Below are positions 22,102 through 39,349 of a stretch of 64,000 nucleotides of DNA, in pieces. The first letter of the stretch is position 1, and the number at the start of each line of letters is the position of its first letter. Position numbers and translations under genes: made by a program. The DNA is taken from the NCBI RefSeq assembly GCF_002270355.1, contig NZ_NJFZ01000042.1, positions 1 through 64,000 of the forward strand, read 5' to 3'. The notes under the pieces are model-generated. The model saw only the letters and a program-made list of their open reading frames with translations, was not told where the DNA came from and did not search any database. Source of the stretch: Flectobacillus sp. BAB-3569. GTDB taxonomy: Bacteria; Bacteroidota; Bacteroidia; Cytophagales; Spirosomataceae.

Positions 22102-25100
22102 TTAAAAACCTAAACGAGCACCAATTGACATAACTCTGTTGAAGTTATAGGTGTTGTCTACTGTACCGTTGAATGAACCAGTTACGTTCATACCTTTTCT
22201 AGCTGACAATAGGCCAAGGTTTTCGCCTGAGAAATAGACACTTGCATTTTTAGCCCCAATTTTAGCCAACCAGTTTGAAGGGATTTTATACGTAAAGGTT
22301 ACGTTATTTAACATTAAATAAGAGGCATCCGTTAAGTATCTTGTACTACCACCAGTTTGGTTTGTGATGTTTCCGTTATCAAAACGAGGAACGTCTGTTA
22401 CATCACCAGCTTTTTGCCAACGTCTCAACGCATCTACGTGCATAGCTGTACCATAAGTACCACCGTGCATCAAAGAGCCATACGCTGAGTCATACACTTT
22501 ACCACCTAATTGGTAGGTCAATTGTACGCTCAATGTAAAGTTTTTGTAAGAGAAATTGTTATTAATAGAACCATATACATCTGGAATAGAAGAAGTACCA
22601 TTGTAACGTTGATTTGCTTCTGCTAATACAGTTGTAACAGTATCTGCACCAATTACTTTACCATTAGTAGTCAAGATGTTTGTTTTGTACAAGGCATTAC
22701 CTGTTTCAGAATCAACACCATAGAATTGACGCAAGTAGAAATCGTAGATTGAGTGACCAACACTATATCCTTTTGAGCCAGAGATAATTAGAGGTTGATT
22801 GTCTGGCATCTTAGTGATTTGGTTCTTCAATGTTGTTGCGTTAAGCGTTGCAGAATATTTGAAATCACCAGTATTGATAATATCACCTGTTAATTGGAAT
22901 TCAAAACCTCTGTTGTAAAGGTTACCAATGTTTTTAGGAATAGTAAAACCACCACCTGTTGTACCACCAGCAGCTAAAGGAAGAGGTACGTTGAAGATCA
23001 AACCTGCTGTTTCACGATTGAAATATTCAAGACTACCTGACAATTTACCTTTGAATAAGCTGAAATCAACACCTAAGTCAAAGTTGTTTGCTGTTTCCCA
23101 AGTCAAATCAGGGTTCGGGATAGAAGCTTGCGTAAATCCTGGTTCTGCATTGTTATTTCTTCCTAAAGTATACAATGCTTGATAAGGATAATAACCTAAA
23201 CCTCCATCATTACCTACTACACCATAAGATGCTCTTACTTTCAATAAGTCAACCCATTTTACATCAAAGAAATCTTCTCTTTCGATATTATAGGCTCCAC
23301 CAACTGACCAGAAGTTAGCCCAACGTACGCCAGGAGCGAAACGAGAGTTACCATCGCGACGAATAGAAGCATTCAAGATATATTTTTTATCGAAATCGTA
23401 GTTAGCTCTTGCAAAGTAACTTTCGATGGTGTAGTTATCTTCGTAAGAAGAAACGCCTAATACTGTTGCAAAGTTTGGCAATTCAGTAATACCATCTACG
23501 ATGATACCTGAACGAGAACCTGTCAAATAGTTGTATTTGTAAGTAAAGTTCTCATGACCACCCAAAACGTTTACATGATGTTTACCAATTTGTTTATCAA
23601 ATTCTAACAATTGGTTCCAAGTATAGTTGGTAGTACGGTACAAGTAGTGGTATGAGCGACCTGCAGGAGCACCATCCCCAATCGTTGGGTTATCGTAAGT
23701 ACGGTAGTGTGTATCTTGCAAATCAAAGCTCAAGTTTGTTGTAGCTTTCAAAAATGGTAAAATCGTGATTGTAGCAAAGGTACGTGCACCTATCAAACCA
23801 CGGATTTGGTTACGTTGATTTAATTCGTTTTCCCAAATTGTATGACGACCACTAGAGTTTGGTCTAGAGTCCCCCATGTCATATACTCTATTTCCATTTG
23901 CATCCAATACATAAGCACCTGTTGTTTGGTCATGCTTGTAAACAGGATAAATTGGAGCCATGAAACGTGAGATATAGAATGGGTTGATAAACGAAGTACC
24001 ACCATCTGAACCAGCATCAACATTGGCCATACTGTAAGTACCATTCAAGTTCAAACCAGTTTTCAACCATTTGGTAGCTTGTGTATTTACACTAACACGA
24101 CCAGTAAAACGTTCGAAATCAGATTTTAACAAATAACCTTGTTCTTTTGTATAACCTAATGATACAAAGTAGTCTGACTTACTAGTACCACCATCATAGT
24201 TGATAGTATAGTTCTTTCTACTTTTTCCACCTTGTTGCATTGCATTTGCCCAGTTTAAATCTTCTGGATATAATAATTGAGCATTAGGGTTCAATTGGCC
24301 GTTTACGTCTACGATTTGAGTAGGCGAAACGTTGAATGGGTTATAGCTTCCCAATAAATTGTAAATACCAGTGTAAGCTCTACCTCCGTACGAAGTTGTC
24401 AAGCCAGAAGCTATACTGCTAGCTACATCCTGTGGTACTTTTAATGAACCATAAGTCAATGTATTACGATATACTTCCCACATCAATGGATAGTATTGTT
24501 GAGCACTTACAGTTTCATATTCTTGTAAACCTCTAGCAATTACACCTTCAGAAGCGCTAATATTGAAGTTGTTACGACCTTCTTTTCCTTTTTTGGTAGT
24601 AATCATGATTACACCATTTGCCCCTCTTGAACCATAAATAGCGGTTGTTGCAGCATCTTTCAATACTGAGATAGACTCAATATCATCTGGGTTCAAAGTA
24701 GACGTACTACCGTTGAAAGGTACACCATCAACAACATAAAGTGCGTTGTTTGAAGCAGAAAGTGAACCAAAACCTCTTACACGAATGGTAGGTTCAGAAC
24801 CTGGAGCACCACCAGACAACGTAGCCTGAACCCCTGGAGCAGCACCTACTAGGGCGTTCATTACGTTTGCTACTGGTTTAGTAGCGATTACGTCTTTACT
24901 AATTTGAGCCGACGAACCAACGTGAGTAGATTTATTTACAGTACCATAACCAACGATAAGTACCTCGTTCAACATTTGTGCATCACCTTCAAGTGATACA
25001 TTGATAGTTGTACGGTTTTGGATAGAAATTTCTTGTTTTGTGTAACCTACCGAAGAAATAACTAAGGTGCCATTTCCGGCTGCAGCGATACTAAATTTAC

Positions 25101-25278
25101 CATCCTTATCGGTGGTAGTACCTTTAGTAGTACCTTTTAGTACAACTGTAACACCAGGCAAAGCTGTACCATCTTCTTTCGAGGAAACAACCCCTTTCAC
25201 GGTAGTTTGAGCTTGGGCATAGCCACAAGTCAACACAAACAGAAATAATACGAGAAAATTTCGTAAACGATTATTCAT
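22102..25278 (-). CDS. susC: SusC/RagA-family TonB-dependent outer-membrane transporter
   Basis: This 1058-residue protein has a signal peptide (MNNRLRNFLVLFLFVLTCGYAQAQ). A carboxypeptidase-regulatory-like domain follows at about 25-105 (TTVKGVVSSKEDGTALPGVTV). The TonB box region and plug lie at about 108-235, with VLIVGYGTVNKS, RVRGFGSLSASNNALYVVDG and ATTAIYGSRGANGVIMITTK. The remainder is a large beta-barrel ending in aromatic Phe (GARLGF). It forms the oligosaccharide import pore with SusD. ATG 25278 is preferred, since a 13-codon in-frame extension to 25317 precedes a perfect signal peptide. No sigma/anti-sigma pair was found nearby. Confidence 0.94.
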   Translation of the reverse strand: MNNRLRNFLVLFLFVLTCGYAQAQTTVKGVVSSKEDGTALPGVTVVLKGTTKGTTTDKDGKFSIAAAGNGTLVISSVGYTKQEISIQNRTTINVSLEGDAQMLNEVLIVGYGTVNKSTHVGSSAQISKDVIATKPVANVMNALVGAAPGVQATLSGGAPGSEPTIRVRGFGSLSASNNALYVVDGVPFNGSTSTLNPDDIESISVLKDAATTAIYGSRGANGVIMITTKKGKEGRNNFNISASEGVIARGLQEYETVSAQQYYPLMWEVYRNTLTYGSLKVPQDVASSIASGLTTSYGGRAYTGIYNLLGSYNPFNVSPTQIVDVNGQLNPNAQLLYPEDLNWANAMQQGGKSRKNYTINYDGGTSKSDYFVSLGYTKEQGYLLKSDFERFTGRVSVNTQATKWLKTGLNLNGTYSMANVDAGSDGGTSFINPFYISRFMAPIYPVYKHDQTTGAYVLDANGNRVYDMGDSRPNSSGRHTIWENELNQRNQIRGLIGARTFATITILPFLKATTNLSFDLQDTHYRTYDNPTIGDGAPAGRSYHYLYRTTNYTWNQLLEFDKQIGKHHVNVLGGHENFTYKYNYLTGSRSGIIVDGITELPNFATVLGVSSYEDNYTIESYFARANYDFDKKYILNASIRRDGNSRFAPGVRWANFWSVGGAYNIEREDFFDVKWVDLLKVRASYGVVGNDGGLGYYPYQALYTLGRNNNAEPGFTQASIPNPDLTWETANNFDLGVDFSLFKGKLSGSLEYFNRETAGLIFNVPLPLAAGGTTGGGFTIPKNIGNLYNRGFEFQLTGDIINTGDFKYSATLNATTLKNQITKMPDNQPLIISGSKGYSVGHSIYDFYLRQFYGVDSETGNALYKTNILTTNGKVIGADTVTTVLAEANQRYNGTSSIPDVYGSINNNFSYKNFTLSVQLTYQLGGKVYDSAYGSLMHGGTYGTAMHVDALRRWQKAGDVTDVPRFDNGNITNQTGGSTRYLTDASYLMLNNVTFTYKIPSNWLAKIGAKNASVYFSGENLGLLSARKGMNVTGSFNGTVDNTYNFNRVMSIGARLGF

Positions 25279-25730
25279 TTTTTGTGCGTTTTTAGTTAGT
25301 AGATAAAGAAAATACAATAATTAGCAAAGGAAGATATCTAAGAAAAGTACCAATAATAATGCAGTTCAATAGGGTGCTGTGGTTTATCGAAAAAATTATT
25401 TATGGTGATTTTTATAAACATCAAAATAAAACAACTGTCTGTATGTGTTAAACAGAAATTTTATTGCTATGGGGTAAAATTAGCGTATTTTTTACTAAAA
25501 TTTTATAAAAAATTAATATAATTTATTGATTATGAGTATTTATTCTTAAATTTTACTACTCGAATTATACTGTTTTGTGTTGTTTATCATGATATTTCTA
25601 CGTTTAAATAAATAAAAAAAGCCTTAGTTCAACGGTCTACAGTTGTTGGACTAGGGCTTTTTTAAACTTCGATTTGTCTTATTTAACTTCTACATATTAC
25701 TATTTTGTATCTTGTTAAATTTCAATAGTT
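25279..25730. other. Intergenic region between susC and a small gene, with hairpin terminator
   Basis: No gene is seen in this AT-rich gap. A hairpin at 25615-25663 has 19-base arms, AAAAAAGCCTTAGTTCAAC and GTTGGACTAGGGCTTTTTT, matched except for two positions that are U-G wobbles on plus-strand RNA. It lies downstream of the minus-strand gene at 25731 and shields susC from it. The susC promoter must lie in 25279-25600, but no exact TAnnTTTG element was found on that strand. Confidence 0.6.
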
Positions 25731-26072
25731 TTATTCGTCAATTTTTGAGTTTGATAGTATAAGTCGTGCCTCAATGACCAATAAGGATTCGGTTATCAGG
25801 TCGCATAGTTCAAGAATTTCGGCTTCGGAAAATAATAAAAAAAAGTGCTGTAGCGGCGTTTTGAATAGCAACTCCTTCCCATGAGAACTTGGATATTCAT
25901 AGAAGCCTATCTTTTCTTCCATAACAGCTTTAAATTGTTTAAGCTCGGCTAAAGAAAGTGCAAAAAGTAAATTCTTATAAGCGAGATTATATTGATTGCA
26001 ACAAGTGCAGTGACTGACAAAAGCATTTTCTTTTTCTAATATGCTCTGAGTTTGATGTTCTGAATGACGCAT
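25731..26072 (-). CDS. Small uncharacterised protein of a two-member family in this window
   Basis: This 113-residue protein has no signal peptide. A Cys cluster (HCTCCNQYNLAY, residues 21-32) is followed by LLFALSLAELKQFKAVMEEKI, KTPLQHFFLLFSEAEILEL and a helical end. It aligns by eye along its whole length with the protein at 37968-38318 (shared Cys, LxxFxLxxxxxF core, P-Q/L-H-x-x-L-x-L-x-E-I stretch). Both resemble a short Bacteroidota-only family, possibly DUF6686; I am not certain of the number. It is cotranscribed with the HMA-like gene (32-base gap) from a promoter carrying an operator-like dyad shared with the siderophore-type receptor, so an iron- or metal-related role is inferred. 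Confidence 0.7.
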   Translation of the reverse strand: MRHSEHQTQSILEKENAFVSHCTCCNQYNLAYKNLLFALSLAELKQFKAVMEEKIGFYEYPSSHGKELLFKTPLQHFFLLFSEAEILELCDLITESLLVIEARLILSNSKIDE

Positions 26073-26104: not shown

Positions 26105-26320
26105 CTACTTCGAAAGATATTCACAGTAATACCCAATTCCTTTCAAGGCTTTACTGATTGCTTGAGGCGTTATCAACTCTTCCGATACTACCGAAAGGGC
26201 ATGGTTGAAATCTGAAAAATCAATACTAAATGATTTGATTCCGAGTGGCTGTAATGCCTCCCATACCGATTGTATGCCAATAGGCGATTGTATATCGGTT
26301 CTAAACATTAGAATATTCAT
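26105..26320 (-). CDS. HMA-like small protein lacking the CxxC metal site
   Basis: At 71 residues, the predicted order is strand, helix, strand, strand, helix, strand: NILMFRTDI, IGIQSVWEALQPL, IKSFSIDFSD, HALSVVSEELI, TPQAISKALKGIG, YYCEYL. This is the ferredoxin-like layout of heavy-metal-associated (HMA) copper chaperone domains. The loop that should hold CxxC reads QSPIGIQS, so classical copper binding is unlikely. It is the first gene of a minus-strand pair, divergent from the TonB-dependent receptor. It may be a sensor, adaptor or metal-handling remnant. The fold call is by pattern only. Confidence 0.65.
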   Translation of the reverse strand: MNILMFRTDIQSPIGIQSVWEALQPLGIKSFSIDFSDFNHALSVVSEELITPQAISKALKGIGYYCEYLSK

Positions 26321-26390: not shown

Positions 26391-26425
26391 CAAATATATC
26401 TATCTATTTAGAATTGTTCCAAATA
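26391..26425 (-). promoter_or_regulatory. Promoter and 21-bp dyad for the HMA-like/small-protein operon
   Basis: On the minus strand TTTG (26420-26423), a 21-bp spacer and TATATTTG (26391-26398) form a near-perfect Bacteroidota promoter. The dyad TATTTAGAA-TTG-TTCCAAATA (26405-26425) has 8 of 9 arm positions paired and covers the -33 element. See also the sites at 26438-26458 and 37885-37905. Confidence 0.7.
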
Positions 26426-26437
26426 AAAACGGAAATT

Positions 26438-26471
26438 TATTTGTACTTAGTCTAAATAAGGTGTAATTTTG
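26438..26471 (+). promoter_or_regulatory. Promoter and 21-bp dyad for the TonB-dependent receptor
   Basis: TTTG (26440-26443), a 20-bp spacer and TAATTTTG (26464-26471) are a textbook Bacteroidota promoter. The dyad TATTTGTAC-TTA-GTCTAAATA (26438-26458; 7 of 9 arm positions paired) covers the -33 element and starts 33 bp from the neighbouring dyad. Such placement suits an iron-responsive repressor of Fur or DtxR type, but the regulator is not encoded here. Confidence 0.7.
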
Positions 26472-26579: not shown

Positions 26580-28916
26580 ATGAAAAACATTTATCTAACA
26601 TTGATGCTATTGACGTGTTCATGGCTATCAATCGCACAAACCGCAATATTGAAAGGACAGGTTAAAACACAGGAAGGAAAACCCGCGGAATTTGTGAATG
26701 TAATTTTACGTGGTACTAATAAAGGAGTCATTACAAATGATGCAGGTAATTTCGAAATCCAAGGAATTAAAGCTGGTAACTATGTAGTTCAGGCTAGTTT
26801 TGTGGGCTTAGAGGCTGTTCAACAAAAAGTAAGTTTAACCTCAGGACAAACATTGGAGATTACCTTGACTTTACCTGAAAGTGCCAAAGAGCTACAGGAA
26901 GTGGTCGTAAACTCGAACCCTAGTAAATATGTAACAGATTATCCTTCAATATCTTTAAGATTAAAAACCCCTTTGCTCGAATTACCTCAAAACATTCAGG
27001 TTGTTACAAAACAATTATTACAAGACCAACAAATTTTTGATATGCTCGAAGGTGTAACACGCAACGTAAGTGGAGTTACACGTCTTGAGCACTGGGATAA
27101 CTACGCACTTTTGAATATGCGTGGGTCTCAAATTGCGGCTTTTCGTAATGGTATGAACGTGCAAATGGCATGGGGACCGCTTGCCGAAGATATGAGTATG
27201 GTCGAGCGTATTGAGTTTGTGAAAGGACCTGCTGGATTTATGCTTGCTAACGGTGAACCTGCGGGTTTTTATAATGTGGTAACCAAGAAACCAACAGGTT
27301 TTACTCGTGGTGAAGTAACTGGAACAATTGGTAGTTTTAATACCTATCGTTCAACCTTAGATTTGGATGGGAAATTGACAAACGATGGAAAATTACTGTA
27401 CCGTCTTAATATAATGGGGCAGTCGAAAGGCTCACATCGTTTGTTTGAACACAATAATCGTGTGTCGGTGGCGCCAGTTGTCAAATACCAAATTTCACCA
27501 AAAACATCATTGACAGCTGAATATACCTATCAATACAACCAAATGTCGATGATTGGGTCTAATTATTCTTTTTCGAAAAAAGGCTTTGCTGATTTACCTG
27601 CGAGTTTTACGACTGCCGAGAAAAATATGGATCCAACCAATATTAACGATAATACGATTTTCTTGACGTTTGCTCATGCATTTAATCCTAATTGGAAGTT
27701 TACAGGACAAGTGGCTTACATGAATTATAGTCAGGTAGGACAGTCAATGTGGCCTTCTGGAATTTCTGCCGATGGCGATACGCTTTACCGCAAAATGTCT
27801 ATCTGGGATGTATTGGGTGAAAATAAATTAGGACAGTTTTTTGTAAATGGAGATTTTAAAACGGGCTCAGTCAAACATCTTCTATTAGGAGGAACTGACA
27901 TTGGTTATAAAGATTATTATCATGATTTTGTGGCGGCAAAAGACATTACCCCATTGGCAATTTACAATCCACAATACGGTATTACTCCCGAATCGGTATA
28001 TCCTGTGTACGACAGAAGTAAAAGTTTAAAAGAACGTGGGGCTCATTATTACCAAAAATACTACGCTTTTTATGTACAAGACGAAATTCATTTGATTGAA
28101 AATAAATTAAGATTGACCTTGGCGGGTCGTTTTACTTCTTCAACTGATGGAAATCCGTATGCTGGCGAAGCCGTTGGGAATAAATTTACTCCGCGAGTAG
28201 GTTTAAGTTACTCACTCGACAAGCATACTTCTGCTTATGCAGTATTCGATGAAGCATTTATCCCTCAAGCTGGTGCTGGTCAAAATGGTGTTAGTTTCAA
28301 GCCTATTACTGGAAATAACAAAGAGATTGGTTTGAAAAGAGAATGGCTGGGAGGCTTATGGACTACCTCAGTAGCTGCGTATAATATCACCAAAAATAAT
28401 GTACTTACAGCTGACCCTACCAACCCAAATTTCTCCGTACAATTGGGACAAACTCAAACAAAGGGTGTTGAATTTGACCTTCGTGGACAAATCCTTCATG
28501 GACTCGACCTAACCTTAAATTATGCTTACACCAATGCAAAAGTAACTAAAGATACCAATCCTATAAATGAAGGTGTCGATGTGCCAGGTTCAACTAGAAA
28601 TATTGCTAATGCGTGGTTGTCATACAAAGCTACCAACGGAAAATTGAAGGGCTGGGGCGTTTCTTTAGGAGCGCAATACCAAAATGGTCGTTCGTCTTGG
28701 TATGTGTTTGATGGCACCAAACAACCTTTGAAAGATTATTTCAAAATGGATGGCGCTGTTTCTTATCAAGTTAATAAGTTATCTTTTGCCTTGAATATCA
28801 ATAATTTACTTAATGCGTATTTGTATTCTGGTGCGTATTATAACTGGGGAGGCTTTTATTATTATCAAACAGAAGCACTCCGAAATGCTCGTTTGACAGT
28901 AGGATATAAATTCTAA
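26580..28916 (+). CDS. TonB-dependent siderophore-type outer-membrane receptor
   Basis: This 778-residue receptor has a signal peptide ending near SIAQ (residue 20). A carboxypeptidase-regulatory-like domain covers about 22-100 (LKGQVKTQEGKPAEFVNVIL) and the plug domain about 110-235. The family mark is LELPQNIQVVTKQLLQDQQ, then MLEGVTRNVSGV, MVERIEFVKGPAGFML and EPAGFYNVVTKKP. The beta-barrel ends in Phe (ARLTVGYKF). The plug resembles FhuE/FpvA ferrisiderophore receptors rather than SusC. It heads a probable operon with a PepSY protein 67 bases downstream, a common iron-uptake pair. Its promoter carries the repeated dyad described at 26438. Confidence 0.9.
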   Translation: MKNIYLTLMLLTCSWLSIAQTAILKGQVKTQEGKPAEFVNVILRGTNKGVITNDAGNFEIQGIKAGNYVVQASFVGLEAVQQKVSLTSGQTLEITLTLPESAKELQEVVVNSNPSKYVTDYPSISLRLKTPLLELPQNIQVVTKQLLQDQQIFDMLEGVTRNVSGVTRLEHWDNYALLNMRGSQIAAFRNGMNVQMAWGPLAEDMSMVERIEFVKGPAGFMLANGEPAGFYNVVTKKPTGFTRGEVTGTIGSFNTYRSTLDLDGKLTNDGKLLYRLNIMGQSKGSHRLFEHNNRVSVAPVVKYQISPKTSLTAEYTYQYNQMSMIGSNYSFSKKGFADLPASFTTAEKNMDPTNINDNTIFLTFAHAFNPNWKFTGQVAYMNYSQVGQSMWPSGISADGDTLYRKMSIWDVLGENKLGQFFVNGDFKTGSVKHLLLGGTDIGYKDYYHDFVAAKDITPLAIYNPQYGITPESVYPVYDRSKSLKERGAHYYQKYYAFYVQDEIHLIENKLRLTLAGRFTSSTDGNPYAGEAVGNKFTPRVGLSYSLDKHTSAYAVFDEAFIPQAGAGQNGVSFKPITGNNKEIGLKREWLGGLWTTSVAAYNITKNNVLTADPTNPNFSVQLGQTQTKGVEFDLRGQILHGLDLTLNYAYTNAKVTKDTNPINEGVDVPGSTRNIANAWLSYKATNGKLKGWGVSLGAQYQNGRSSWYVFDGTKQPLKDYFKMDGAVSYQVNKLSFALNINNLLNAYLYSGAYYNWGGFYYYQTEALRNARLTVGYKF

Positions 28917-28983: not shown

Positions 28984-30135
28984 ATGAATTTTAAAAAACT
29001 TGTCGGAAAAGTTCATTTATTCTTGGGTTTGGCATCTGGGATTATTGTTTTTATCATCAGTGTTACGGGTTGTTTGTATGCTTTTCAGGAGGAAATACAA
29101 AATGCAACTGAGGAGTTTCGATTTGTTACACCCCAAAAAACAGCAATGTTACCTCCTTCCCAATTACAGGAGATAGCTACTAAAACTCTGCCTACCAGAA
29201 ATTTACATGCCATTATGTATGGCTCTCCCGACCAGTCAGTCCAAGCTATATTTTATCATTTTGAGCCATATCACTATTTCTTAGTGTATCTTGACCCATA
29301 CACAGGCAAGGTGTTACAGGTGAAAGATATGTCAAAGGATTTTTTTAGATGGGTATTAGATGGACATTATTATTTGTGGTTGCCTCCTTCGGTTGGACAA
29401 CCGATTGTGGCATCGGCAACTTTGGTCTTTTTTGTCTTACTTATTTCTGGCATTATTCTTTGGTGGCCTAAAAATAAGGGTGCAGCCAAGCAACGATTTT
29501 CAGTTAAATGGAATGCTCAATGGCGTCGTAAAAACTATGATTTTCACAACGTTTTAGGCTTTTATGCATCATGGGTGGTGGTTGTATTGGTTATAACTGG
29601 GTTGGTTTGGGGATTTCAGTGGTTTTCTAAAGGAGTTTATGCTGGAATAGGTGGAAAAAAATCTTTAGAATTTGTCGAACCACTTTCCAGAAAAGTTCCT
29701 TCCTCAAGTTCAGAAGCTGCCATAGACCAAGCTTGGCATAAAGTCTTGAAGGAAACACCTCAGGCAGCCTCTATCGAAGTCCATGTTCCTGAATCAGATT
29801 CTGCATCGATTGCAGTGAATGTGAATCATCAAAAAGGAACTTTTTGGACTACAGATTATCGATATTTTGACCAATATACATTGAAGGAGCTTAATGTTTC
29901 GCATCTGTATGGTCGTTTCAAAGATGCAACGGCTTCGGATAAACTTTTCAGAATGAATTACGATATTCATGTTGGCGCTATTTGGGGAATAGCTGGAAAA
30001 ATTTTAGCTTTTTCAGTAAGCCTTATTTCAGCAAGTTTGCCAATCACTGGATTTTTAATTTGGTGGGGACGTCGTAACAAAAAGAAGGATATTTTACCTA
30101 AACAAAAAAATAAAACCGCATTAATTACTGAGTAA
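28984..30135 (+). CDS. PepSY-associated inner-membrane protein (putative ferrisiderophore reductase)
   Basis: This 383-residue membrane protein has about four transmembrane segments: residues 10-33 (VHLFLGLASGIIVFIISVTG), about 137-160, about 190-212, and near the C terminus 330-358. PepSY-type periplasmic regions lie between them. Conserved histidines near the membrane segments (GKVHLFLG, DGHYYLW, DFHNVLGFY, NYDIHVGAIWG) suit haem ligation. Proteins of this type are commonly encoded beside ferrisiderophore receptors and are proposed to reduce ferric siderophores in the periplasm. It follows the receptor gene in the same direction. A terminator follows at 30249. Confidence 0.85.
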   Translation: MNFKKLVGKVHLFLGLASGIIVFIISVTGCLYAFQEEIQNATEEFRFVTPQKTAMLPPSQLQEIATKTLPTRNLHAIMYGSPDQSVQAIFYHFEPYHYFLVYLDPYTGKVLQVKDMSKDFFRWVLDGHYYLWLPPSVGQPIVASATLVFFVLLISGIILWWPKNKGAAKQRFSVKWNAQWRRKNYDFHNVLGFYASWVVVVLVITGLVWGFQWFSKGVYAGIGGKKSLEFVEPLSRKVPSSSSEAAIDQAWHKVLKETPQAASIEVHVPESDSASIAVNVNHQKGTFWTTDYRYFDQYTLKELNVSHLYGRFKDATASDKLFRMNYDIHVGAIWGIAGKILAFSVSLISASLPITGFLIWWGRRNKKKDILPKQKNKTALITE

Positions 30136-30248: not shown

Positions 30249-30283
30249 AAACCTATCCGTTTATTTTGGATAGGTTTTTTTTT
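30249..30283 (+). terminator. Terminator after the PepSY gene
   Basis: AAACCTATCC (30249-30258) pairs with GGATAGGTTT (30268-30277), followed by a run of T. Confidence 0.85.
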
Positions 30284-30310
30284 ATCTTGTACCAAAAATC
30301 TCCAAAGACT

Positions 30311-30577
30311 ATGTCTCACGTAACATTTCCCGAAAAAACTATTCTAATTTGCGATGGTAGCAAGTGCGGAAAACATAAAGAGCTTCGAAAGTTCTTTAAG
30401 GAGTCTATCAAGGATCATGGACTCAAAGACGAGGTTGAAATTGTAAAAATTGAATGTACGGATCGCTGTAAGCATGCTCCAATCGTATGCTTTCAACCGC
30501 AAAATCAATGGTTGTCTGAGGTGACGATATGGCAAGCCGATTCACTTTTCAAAAAGTTTATTTTAGAAAAAGAATAA
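30311..30577 (+). CDS. Small 2Fe-2S ferredoxin-like (thioredoxin-fold) protein
   Basis: This 88-residue protein has four cysteines in the pattern of thioredoxin-fold 2Fe-2S ferredoxins: CDGSKCGKH (C-x4-C) near residue 15 and CTDRCKHAPIVC near residues 53-64. It probably carries electrons in the cytoplasm. ATG 30311 (MSHVTFPEK) is used rather than the in-frame TTG at 30266, which falls in the preceding terminator. The position downstream of iron-uptake genes suggests a partner in iron reduction or iron-sulfur handling, but it has its own flanking terminators, so cotranscription is unlikely. Confidence 0.8.
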   Translation: MSHVTFPEKTILICDGSKCGKHKELRKFFKESIKDHGLKDEVEIVKIECTDRCKHAPIVCFQPQNQWLSEVTIWQADSLFKKFILEKE

Positions 30578-30740: not shown

Positions 30741-32267
30741 ATGAATCGAGTATCTATTTTTAGCTTATTAATTGCTAATACTCTTCTGTACGTCTCTTGT
30801 GACTCAACAAAAGCGAACAAACAAAATTTAGTTCCCTCAGGTTTGACGGGCGAACAACTATCTCAACAACATTGCGTTTCTTGTCACGCTTATCCATCTC
30901 CTAATTTAGTGGAAAAAGAATGGTGGGCTAAAGGTATTTTGCCAAAAATGGCTTTACGACTTGGCATGGGAAATAAAATGGGATATCTCACCAATATCAG
31001 TTATGAAGACATGATGGAGGTTTCGGTAGCAAATATCTATCCAGATGCACCTGCTATGGCTCCCGAAGATTGGAAGAAGATAGTAGACTTTTATGTAAAA
31101 AATGCTCCTGAAAAACCTATTCCTCAAGTTTCAAAAGTCAAAGCCACACAACTTTCTGATTTGTTTGATATTCAAACCTTAGAGAATACCAACAACGAGC
31201 CTTCATTGGTAACAATGGTGAAAATTTTACCTAATGAACAAGCTCTTTATGTAGCTCATCGTGGTAGAAATCGGGTGGAAAAATGGGATAAAACACTCCA
31301 AAAAATCTCCGAAGTTCCCACAGAGAGCCCTGTTTCTGATGTTGTAAAAACACCTAATAATATGATGGCACTTGGTATGGGCATTATGGATCCCAATGAC
31401 CAAGCATTGGGAAAACTATGGAGTATCGCCAAGGGTTCTTCTCAAACGCTAGTCGAAAAGCTTCGTCGTCCTGTCGAAATCTCAATGGGAGATTTAGATG
31501 CTAATGGTGCACCAGACTATCTGATTTGTGAGTTTGGTAACGATATAGGAAAATTGACGTGGTATGATCAAAACTTTAAATTGAAGAAAGAAATTTTGAA
31601 TTTTGCAGGTATCCGAAATGCCACTATTACCGATATAAATGGCGATAAATTACCTGATATTGTGGTTTTACAAACTCAAGGTGATGAAGGCATTTGGGTG
31701 CTCGAAAATCGAGGTAATGGAGAATTTGAGCCCAAGCGTGTCTTGCGTTTTCCTCCTATTTACGGCTCAAGTTTTATTCATGTAGTTGACATCAATAAAG
31801 ATGGCTATCAAGATATTGTGTATACCAATGGCGATAATGCCGATGCTTCCATTTCTTTAAAGCGATATCATGGCGTACATGTTTACCTGAATGATGGAAA
31901 GATGAATTTTAAGCGTCAATATTTTTACCCGATGCATGGAGCTTCTAAAGCCTTAAGTCAAGATTTTGACGGTGATGGAGATATGGATATTGCAGCTATT
32001 TCGTTTTTCCCAGATAAAAAACAAAATCCTGCAGAAGGTTTTTTATATTTTGAAAATACAGGAAAAGGCTTTACTCCGCATTTTATAGAGGGAATTTCTG
32101 ATAAAAAATGGATGGTAATGGATTGTGGCGATTTGGATAAAGACGGAGATATCGACCTTGTGTTAGGGGCGTTTAATCTTCAAGATAGGGATAGACAATC
32201 CAATGCGTCCTCTGAAAAAAGGACTGGTGTTTACGTACTAAAATCAAAAAATAAGACTCATTTGTAG
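30741..32267 (+). CDS. Lipoprotein with cytochrome c motif and FG-GAP/VCBS repeats
   Basis: This 508-residue protein has an N-terminal signal and probable lipidation at Cys20 (LLYVSCDS). A haem c site CVSCH is at residues 45-49. After a linker, about residues 150-500 contain FG-GAP/VCBS-type repeats with Ca-binding-like acidic loops: DLDANGAPDYL, DINGDKLPDIV, DINKDGYQDIV, DFDGDGDMDIA and DLDKDGDIDLV. This suggests a periplasmic or surface beta-propeller carrying one haem. The reaction is unknown. It is placed after iron-related genes but separated by a terminator. The mono-haem plus propeller layout occurs in other Bacteroidota proteins of unknown function. Confidence 0.8.
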   Translation: MNRVSIFSLLIANTLLYVSCDSTKANKQNLVPSGLTGEQLSQQHCVSCHAYPSPNLVEKEWWAKGILPKMALRLGMGNKMGYLTNISYEDMMEVSVANIYPDAPAMAPEDWKKIVDFYVKNAPEKPIPQVSKVKATQLSDLFDIQTLENTNNEPSLVTMVKILPNEQALYVAHRGRNRVEKWDKTLQKISEVPTESPVSDVVKTPNNMMALGMGIMDPNDQALGKLWSIAKGSSQTLVEKLRRPVEISMGDLDANGAPDYLICEFGNDIGKLTWYDQNFKLKKEILNFAGIRNATITDINGDKLPDIVVLQTQGDEGIWVLENRGNGEFEPKRVLRFPPIYGSSFIHVVDINKDGYQDIVYTNGDNADASISLKRYHGVHVYLNDGKMNFKRQYFYPMHGASKALSQDFDGDGDMDIAAISFFPDKKQNPAEGFLYFENTGKGFTPHFIEGISDKKWMVMDCGDLDKDGDIDLVLGAFNLQDRDRQSNASSEKRTGVYVLKSKNKTHL

Positions 32268-37884: not shown

Positions 37885-37940
37885 TATTTAGACTTATTTT
37901 AAATAGTTATTGCATGATATTCTTTCTCCTATTAACTTTG
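37885..37940 (+). promoter_or_regulatory. Promoter and 21-bp dyad before the second small-protein gene
   Basis: TTG (37910-37912), a 20-bp spacer and TAACTTTG (37933-37940) form a good promoter 28 bases before the ATG. Immediately upstream is the dyad TATTTAGAC-TTA-TTTTAAATA (37885-37905). Its left arm and centre match, as reverse complement, the right arm of the site before the TonB-dependent receptor (TATTTAGAC). Confidence 0.65.
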
Positions 37941-37967: not shown

Positions 37968-38318
37968 ATGGAATATCCTGCGTTTCACGAATTGTATCAA
38001 AATTCAAAAGGAAGTACTTGGCAATGCGATTTGACAAACAAGATTCATGTGCATTTTAATGGAATGGTAGCAAGTTTCAAGATTCATGATTTCTTAGCAT
38101 TTCGTCGTAAGGTATCGTCAATCGATATTCATCAAATGATCTTTAATTTATCAGATGATTTTGATTATGAGTTAGTTGAAGCTCCACAAGCACAATTGTC
38201 ATGGGAGCTAACGCTTTGTGAAATAGTTCAGTTGAGAGATTTATTGGATGGAACGAAGTTTGTCCTTTCCTTAAATAGTATGTTATATGAGGTGTTGGGA
38301 GAAGGGGCTTTAGCATAA
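37968..38318 (+). CDS. Small uncharacterised protein, paralogue of 25731-26072
   Basis: This 116-residue protein has no signal peptide or transmembrane segment. CDLTNKIHVHFNGMVASFKI is followed by HDFLAFRRKV and then APQAQLSWELTLCEIVQLRD. It aligns by eye with the 113-residue protein at 25731, although the Cys cluster is reduced to one Cys. Such proteins are found in Bacteroidota only as far as I know (possibly DUF6686, not certain). Its promoter carries the same 21-bp dyad as the siderophore-receptor promoter region, so it probably belongs to one metal-responsive regulon. It is monocistronic, between two terminators. Confidence 0.75.
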   Translation: MEYPAFHELYQNSKGSTWQCDLTNKIHVHFNGMVASFKIHDFLAFRRKVSSIDIHQMIFNLSDDFDYELVEAPQAQLSWELTLCEIVQLRDLLDGTKFVLSLNSMLYEVLGEGALA

Positions 38319-38542: not shown

Positions 38543-39349
38543 ATGAAACATGTATTTCGTACCAGAATAGTGGCTGTACTGGCTCTATTGGTTACAATTC
38601 TTACTTCTGTTGCATCTTGGGCAGCTGCTCCCAAAAGAGATTTTTATCAGTTGGTTATTTATCGTTTGAAAACAGCCGAGCAAGAATCGAGACTCGATAA
38701 TTACTTGCAGAATGCCTATATGCCAGCATTGCATCGTGCAGGTATTGAAAAAGTGGGTGTATTTAAGCCTATCATTGCAACTGATGCTGCCGAGCCAGCC
38801 GAAAAATTAGTCTATGTATTTATTCCTTTTAAATCACAGGACGAATGGGCAAAGTTGGAAGGAAAACTTGCTTCAGATAAAACTTATTTAGAAGACGGAA
38901 AAGATTATATCGACACGCCTTGGGACAAGCCTGTATATACACGTATGGAGTCTATTTTGATGAGAGCGTTTGTTGATCAACCGCATTTCCAAATGCCAGC
39001 GCTTTCTTCGCCAAAATCCGAAAGAGTGTATGAGTTTAGAAGCTATGAAGGTCCAAGCGAGAAATTGTATGTGAACAAAGTAGATATGTTTAATGCAGGA
39101 GGAGAAGTAAAATTGTTTAAAAGACTGAATTTCAATGCTGTATTTTACTCTGAAGTAATATCTGGCGCAGCTATGCCGAACTTGATTTACATGACAACTT
39201 TCGAAAACAAAGCCGATAGAGATGCGCATTGGAAGGCGTTTGGTGCTGATCCTGAATGGAAAACTTTATCTGCGATACCAAAATATCAGCATAATGTTTC
39301 AAAAAATGATACACGTTTCTTGAGACCAACGGATTACTCTGATATCTAG
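38543..39349 (+). CDS. Secreted NIPSNAP-family protein
   Basis: This 268-residue protein has a signal peptide (ending near SWAAA, residue 29). Two NIPSNAP-like alpha/beta-barrel domains follow: the first (about 33-140) opens with FYQLVIYRLKTAEQESRLDNYLQNAYMPA; the second (about 160-262) opens with RVYEFRSYEGPSEKLYVNKV and includes VFYSEVISGAAMPNLIYMTTF. Secreted tandem NIPSNAP proteins are frequent in Bacteroidota and Planctomycetes, often near carbohydrate genes. Their biochemical role is unknown. Monocistronic with a strong terminator. Confidence 0.85.
   Translation: MKHVFRTRIVAVLALLVTILTSVASWAAAPKRDFYQLVIYRLKTAEQESRLDNYLQNAYMPALHRAGIEKVGVFKPIIATDAAEPAEKLVYVFIPFKSQDEWAKLEGKLASDKTYLEDGKDYIDTPWDKPVYTRMESILMRAFVDQPHFQMPALSSPKSERVYEFRSYEGPSEKLYVNKVDMFNAGGEVKLFKRLNFNAVFYSEVISGAAMPNLIYMTTFENKADRDAHWKAFGADPEWKTLSAIPKYQHNVSKNDTRFLRPTDYSDI

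Follow-up and report, generated by a model that had tools for sequence, protein, structure and literature searches.

Predicted Fur boxes tie DUF6686 proteins to siderophore uptake in Flectobacillus and to iron genes in other Bacteroidota

The 64,000-nucleotide stretch of Flectobacillus sp. BAB-3569 DNA analysed here (the window) contains three 21-bp dyads, which precede a siderophore receptor gene and the genes of two proteins of the DUF6686 family. We consider it very probable that these dyads are Fur boxes that repress three transcripts together with iron, and that DUF6686 is a recurrent member of Fur regulons; somewhat less firmly, we propose for it a cytosolic role in the handling or sensing of iron. 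The apparently new finding is that DUF6686 and a 71-residue protein encoded next to it are reproducibly linked to predicted Fur control.

The dyads are located at positions 26405-26425 (box 1, minus strand, TATTTAGAATTGTTCCAAATA), 26438-26458 (box 2, plus strand, TATTTGTACTTAGTCTAAATA) and 37885-37905 (box 3, plus strand, TATTTAGACTTATTTTAAATA), with matrix scores of 24.4, 25.9 and 26.2, respectively. Their sequences and positions are as given in an earlier note on this DNA, and boxes 1 and 2 indeed start 33 bp apart. The note had also placed the -33 elements of two divergent promoters under these two boxes, and the DNA there does fit the -33/-7 form of Bacteroidota promoters (TTG-N20/21-TAnnTTTG). 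Box 1 covers the -33 element of a leftward putative promoter (26391-26422, minus strand, TTG-N21-TATATTTG) preceding the gene of the 71-residue protein and that of DUF6686 protein A, and box 2 covers the -33 element of a rightward putative promoter (26441-26471, plus strand, TTG-N20-TAATTTTG) preceding the siderophore receptor gene; in both cases the TTG lies within the dyad. Box 3, described in the note as sitting just upstream of the promoter of the paralogous gene, ends 4 bp before the start of the putative promoter of DUF6686 protein B (37910-37940, plus strand, TTG-N20-TAACTTTG), and its centre is 73 bp upstream of that gene. An identical copy of the box 3 site precedes the DUF6686 B orthologue in three other genomes (G001, G002 and G003). 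The promoters are putative, because the promoter-like pattern alone is equally frequent in the window and in the reversed window (3 vs 3).

The three dyads are not due to chance. A symmetric matrix built from 19 genomic sites, all outside the window, recovers exactly these three dyads in the 64 kb, with the next-best position scoring 9.2, and no position in the reversed window scores 11 or higher. The shape of the matrix is partly circular, because its training sites were found with the consensus of the dyads in the earlier note and retained if near iron genes; the tests upstream of DUF6686 genes, and their controls, are much less affected by this circularity. Genome-wide, the dyad pattern with at most two mismatches occurs 21+19 times compared to 3+3 times for the reversed pattern (approximately six to seven times as often), where the paired numbers are forward and reverse readings and a single palindromic site may be counted twice. 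With the same tolerance, the pattern is also enriched in most of 23 relatives. A looser pattern, TTTAGACTNNGTCTAAA with three mismatches, showed no enrichment (223/196 vs 377/378) and was dropped; enrichment of the motif depends on both the flanking TA and the variable centre.

Outside the window, 15 of the 16 best genomic sites (at most two mismatches) are found at iron, haem or Fe-S loci, and the remaining one is within an unrelated coding region. Sites are present at TonB receptor genes on contigs C26 (with HmuY), C29, C85, C120, C22 and C138, and one boxed TonB receptor outside the window is accompanied by a PepSY_TM protein. Further sites are located at feoA-feoB, sufC-sufD, hemA and apbE, at an ankyrin/DUF2271-apbE cluster and, with a weaker score, between fur and a Pyr_redox gene. 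These genome-wide statements come from pattern searches and 20 retrieved stretches. The motif separates iron-type from carbohydrate-type receptors here, since the gene of a SusC-type receptor in the same window (22102-25317) has no site in the matrix scan. The earlier note had proposed a scan of the whole genome, and the outcome, a motif concentrated at iron genes, supports its reading of the dyads as an iron-type operator. On contig C22 of the host genome (G000), an AraC-type regulator gene (L061:9195-10232) has its own Fur box and adjoins a Fur-boxed TonB receptor gene; AraC-type regulators next to receptors are an arrangement of siderophore regulators in other phyla.

Paired Fur boxes show a two-peaked spacing, with nine distinct pairs at 31-33 bp (L001, L031, L034, L035, L036, L106, L107, L132 and L135) and nine at 60-63 bp (L008, L009, L011, L025, L081, L130, L133, L146 and L166). 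These distances are near three and six helical turns and possibly reflect cooperative binding or looping, in genomes that are related and not independent.

Riemerella anatipestifer has the closest known operator, the Fur box ATTTAGAATTATTCTAAAT, which was derived from delta-fur transcriptomes and tested in EMSA (PMC5609570, PMC10986502). In that organism purified Fur binds the motif in EMSA, the receptor gene rhuB is repressed by iron and Fur, and one box is common to hmuR and the hypothetical gene RAYM_06185, reported as Fur-regulated (Table 5; PMC5609570, PMC10986502). The window dyads agree with ATTTAGAATTATTCTAAAT at most positions, and the two systems are alike in the sequence and symmetry of the operator and in the types of target (TonB receptors and HmuY/HmuR). 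They differ in that the divergent promoters here each have a box of their own, the two boxes starting 33 bp apart, and in that the targets include DUF6686 and the 71-residue protein. The operator is of a known kind, a Fur box, and regulons of this type have been described before; the claim of the earlier note that the operator was undescribed is refuted by the work on Riemerella (PMC5609570, PMC10986502). Nothing relevant on Spirosomaceae Fur regulons came up in a literature search.

By analogy with the demonstration in Riemerella, we infer that Fur is the binder in this species. The genome also contains one gene of the DtxR family, and DtxR-type operators may be odd palindromes of similar length, but we consider it quite improbable that a DtxR/IdeR-family regulator, which would still respond to iron or manganese, binds these sites. 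They match the EMSA-tested box of Riemerella, and a site is present in the fur intergenic region, whereas around the dtxR gene nothing better than a weak site (16.3) is found. Nor is the motif confined to genomes with a DtxR-family protein, in this small sample: two relatives without a PF02742 match keep it (7/7 vs 0/0 reversed in G027 and 4/2 vs 0/0 in G010), while it is not enriched in one relative without a PF01475 match (1/4 vs 2/1 in G029). This contrast, with one to two genomes each way, favours Fur. The genome has three Fur-family genes (PF01475 matches on contigs C128, C16 and C34) and PerR boxes show a comparable 7-1-7 symmetry, so the sites might serve a PerR- or Zur-like family member responding to peroxide or zinc. 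Such an assignment is highly improbable, given that the targets are iron, haem and Fe-S genes and that the closest studied operator responds to Fur and iron.

With Fur as the predicted regulator, the most conspicuous targets are the DUF6686 proteins. Protein A (25731-26072, minus strand; 113 residues, with C22-x2-C25) matches PF20391 with an E-value of 3.6e-11 and 43.6 bits, above the curated cut-off of 23.9 bits. Protein B (37968-38318, plus strand; 116 residues, only the first Cys kept) is just below that cut-off (23.1 bits, E-value 7.5e-5), and we treat it as a divergent DUF6686 relative; its predicted fold and an aligned Cys agree with protein A. The small proteins, which the earlier note took to be paralogues of one family tied twice to the same operator, both match DUF6686 (B marginally), and each is behind a box. 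A literature search for DUF6686 found no paper naming the family.

The association extends well beyond the window. Upstream sequence was usable for 67 Bacteroidota DUF6686 genes, and 31 of these are preceded by a Fur box (score of at least 14) within 600 bp. Reading the same DNA reversed gave a box in 0/67, and the control family DUF3276, likewise a Bacteroidota family and taken from the same set of relatives, in 0/30. The difference between DUF6686 and DUF3276 (Fisher P 7e-7 overall; 18/27 vs 0/30 and P 1.5e-8 in the same relatives only) is overstated by these P values, because the genomes are related and not independent. Outside the host's own family a box is found upstream of 13/42 DUF6686 genes, and for about half of the DUF6686 genes no box could be detected, above all where the genome is GC-rich. 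The plasmids searched contained no DUF6686. As judged from sequence, DUF6686 is probably a recurrent Fur regulon member across Bacteroidota.

The neighbouring genes point in the same direction. A receptor, PepSY_TM, ferritin or Fur homologue is encoded within approximately 1.5 kb of 34/68 DUF6686 genes, compared to 1/30 controls (P 2e-6). Feo was excluded from this comparison for both families, and FeoB matches beside DUF3276, presumably GTPase cross-matches, were discarded. A receptor gene directly follows DUF6686 at four loci (L130, L133, L136 and L141) and is divergent from it in the window and at L142, while a ferritin gene is located directly downstream at L131, L134 and L143. In Spirosoma arboris (L127:6636-8261), two DUF6686 genes and a gene for a 77-residue protein are followed by fur, with one Fur box upstream, which suggests that autoregulated fur may be expressed together with DUF6686 from a putative operon. 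At L143 a separate Fur box is present between DUF6686 and the ferritin gene. A DUF6607-type protein recurs beside DUF6686 (L128:6583-7512, L132:6390-7328 and L146:7094-8002), where the Pfam match was tested in L128 and the other two proteins are alike by sequence; it is possibly a further partner of DUF6686.

Many DUF6686 genes adjoin receptor genes, and the link could therefore be passive, with the genes merely sharing the promoters of neighbouring iron-uptake genes. We regard this as unlikely, since DUF6686 B has its own box without an adjoining iron gene, and stand-alone DUF6686 genes with their own close upstream box occur in other families (L096, L097 and L119). The associations lend good support to a role of DUF6686 in iron homeostasis, and the metal-handling role predicted in the earlier note is strengthened by the phylum-wide pattern. 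That the biochemical role is iron handling or sensing is somewhat favoured; any specific chemistry is much less certain.

The 71-residue protein (26105-26320, minus strand) is a conserved partner of DUF6686 in the cassette. The earlier note had called it HMA-like, a label that is not confirmed: the protein has no Pfam or NCBIfam match at an E-value of 0.001, HMA profiles included, and its sequence contains no CxxC. Homologues are present in 25/101 genomes of the host's family. At 20 loci that encode them, DUF6686 is adjacent or close in most, and most have a Fur box. Two of the loci (L166 and L167) have a Fur-boxed 71-residue-protein gene without DUF6686 in the retrieved stretch, and because the gene is boxed in most loci, including these two, it looks like a predicted Fur-regulon member in its own right.

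On the other side of the divergent promoters, the gene at 26580-28916 (plus strand) encodes a TonB-dependent receptor with Pfam Plug and beta-barrel domains. The protein exceeds the curated cut-off of TIGR01783 (294.7 bits vs 223.5), which confirms the siderophore-type receptor of the earlier note. A PepSY_TM membrane protein (28984-30135, plus strand; PF03929, E-value 1.3e-65) is encoded co-directionally with the receptor. On the same strand follow a small protein with weak similarity to 2Fe-2S ferredoxins (30266-30577; a Cys pattern and NF041612 at an E-value of 7.6e-5, far under the cut-off) and an FG-GAP repeat protein (30741-32267; PF13517) with a haem-c-like CVSCH motif (CxxCH) in its sequence. 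After DUF6686 B, on the same strand, a NIPSNAP-domain protein is encoded (38543-39349) that has a hydrophobic stretch at its N-terminus, and the matrix scan of the window found no Fur box belonging to this gene.

Fairly confident AlphaFold2 models of DUF6686 proteins A (pLDDT 88.9, pTM 0.79) and B (pLDDT 84.1, pTM 0.76) show a similar order of elements (four strands, a helix, more strands and a long helix), at 14% identity between the paralogues. Both models align best to repeats I-II of PURA (Z 6.6 and 3.2 Å over 97 residues for A; Z 7.2 and 3.4 Å over 100 residues for B) and are weakly PUR-like, although identity to PURA is 8% and Z-scores below 8 may arise from a common arrangement alone. 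Weak structural matches to trypanosome MRP1/2, Whirly and polo-box chains, with Z of at most 5 and TM below 0.5, were set aside, and a sequence search of solved structures (PDB) with DUF6686 gave no match. A universal metal site is not apparent, because the CxxC is complete in 38/68 DUF6686 proteins and half-present, with one Cys, in 28/68; on these counts we rejected the idea that conserved metal binding by the CxxC defines how the family works. By eye, no signal peptide was seen in proteins A and B, which suggests that they are located in the cytosol. One may speculate that DUF6686, under the control of Fur, binds nucleic acids in the manner of PUR proteins and carries out a protein-based iron-sparing response in Bacteroidota: under iron shortage it would change how target RNAs are translated or how stable they are, and in some family members the CxxC would sense iron or redox state. 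We hold this to be unlikely.

In the mechanism that we propose, Fe(II)-loaded Fur would bind each 21-bp site when iron is plentiful, and would cover or abut the -33 element, thereby repressing transcription. When iron is scarce Fur would leave, and three transcripts would start: a rightward transcript of the siderophore receptor-PepSY_TM operon, a leftward transcript of the 71-residue-protein gene and DUF6686 A, and, 11 kb away, a transcript of DUF6686 B. DUF6686, most likely in the cytosol, would then handle or sense the incoming iron, a proposal made because its genes adjoin those of ferritin, TonB receptors and PepSY_TM proteins and, once, form a putative operon with fur.

Predicted Fur control, together with the link to genes of iron uptake and storage and to the gene of the regulator, offers a first functional handle on DUF6686, and the tie to Fur makes the function of both DUF6686 and the 71-residue protein testable. 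The sites also support the view that the Riemerella Fur box applies in Cytophagales and, with less certainty, in other Bacteroidota; the Fur regulons of these groups may thereby become predictable from sequence.
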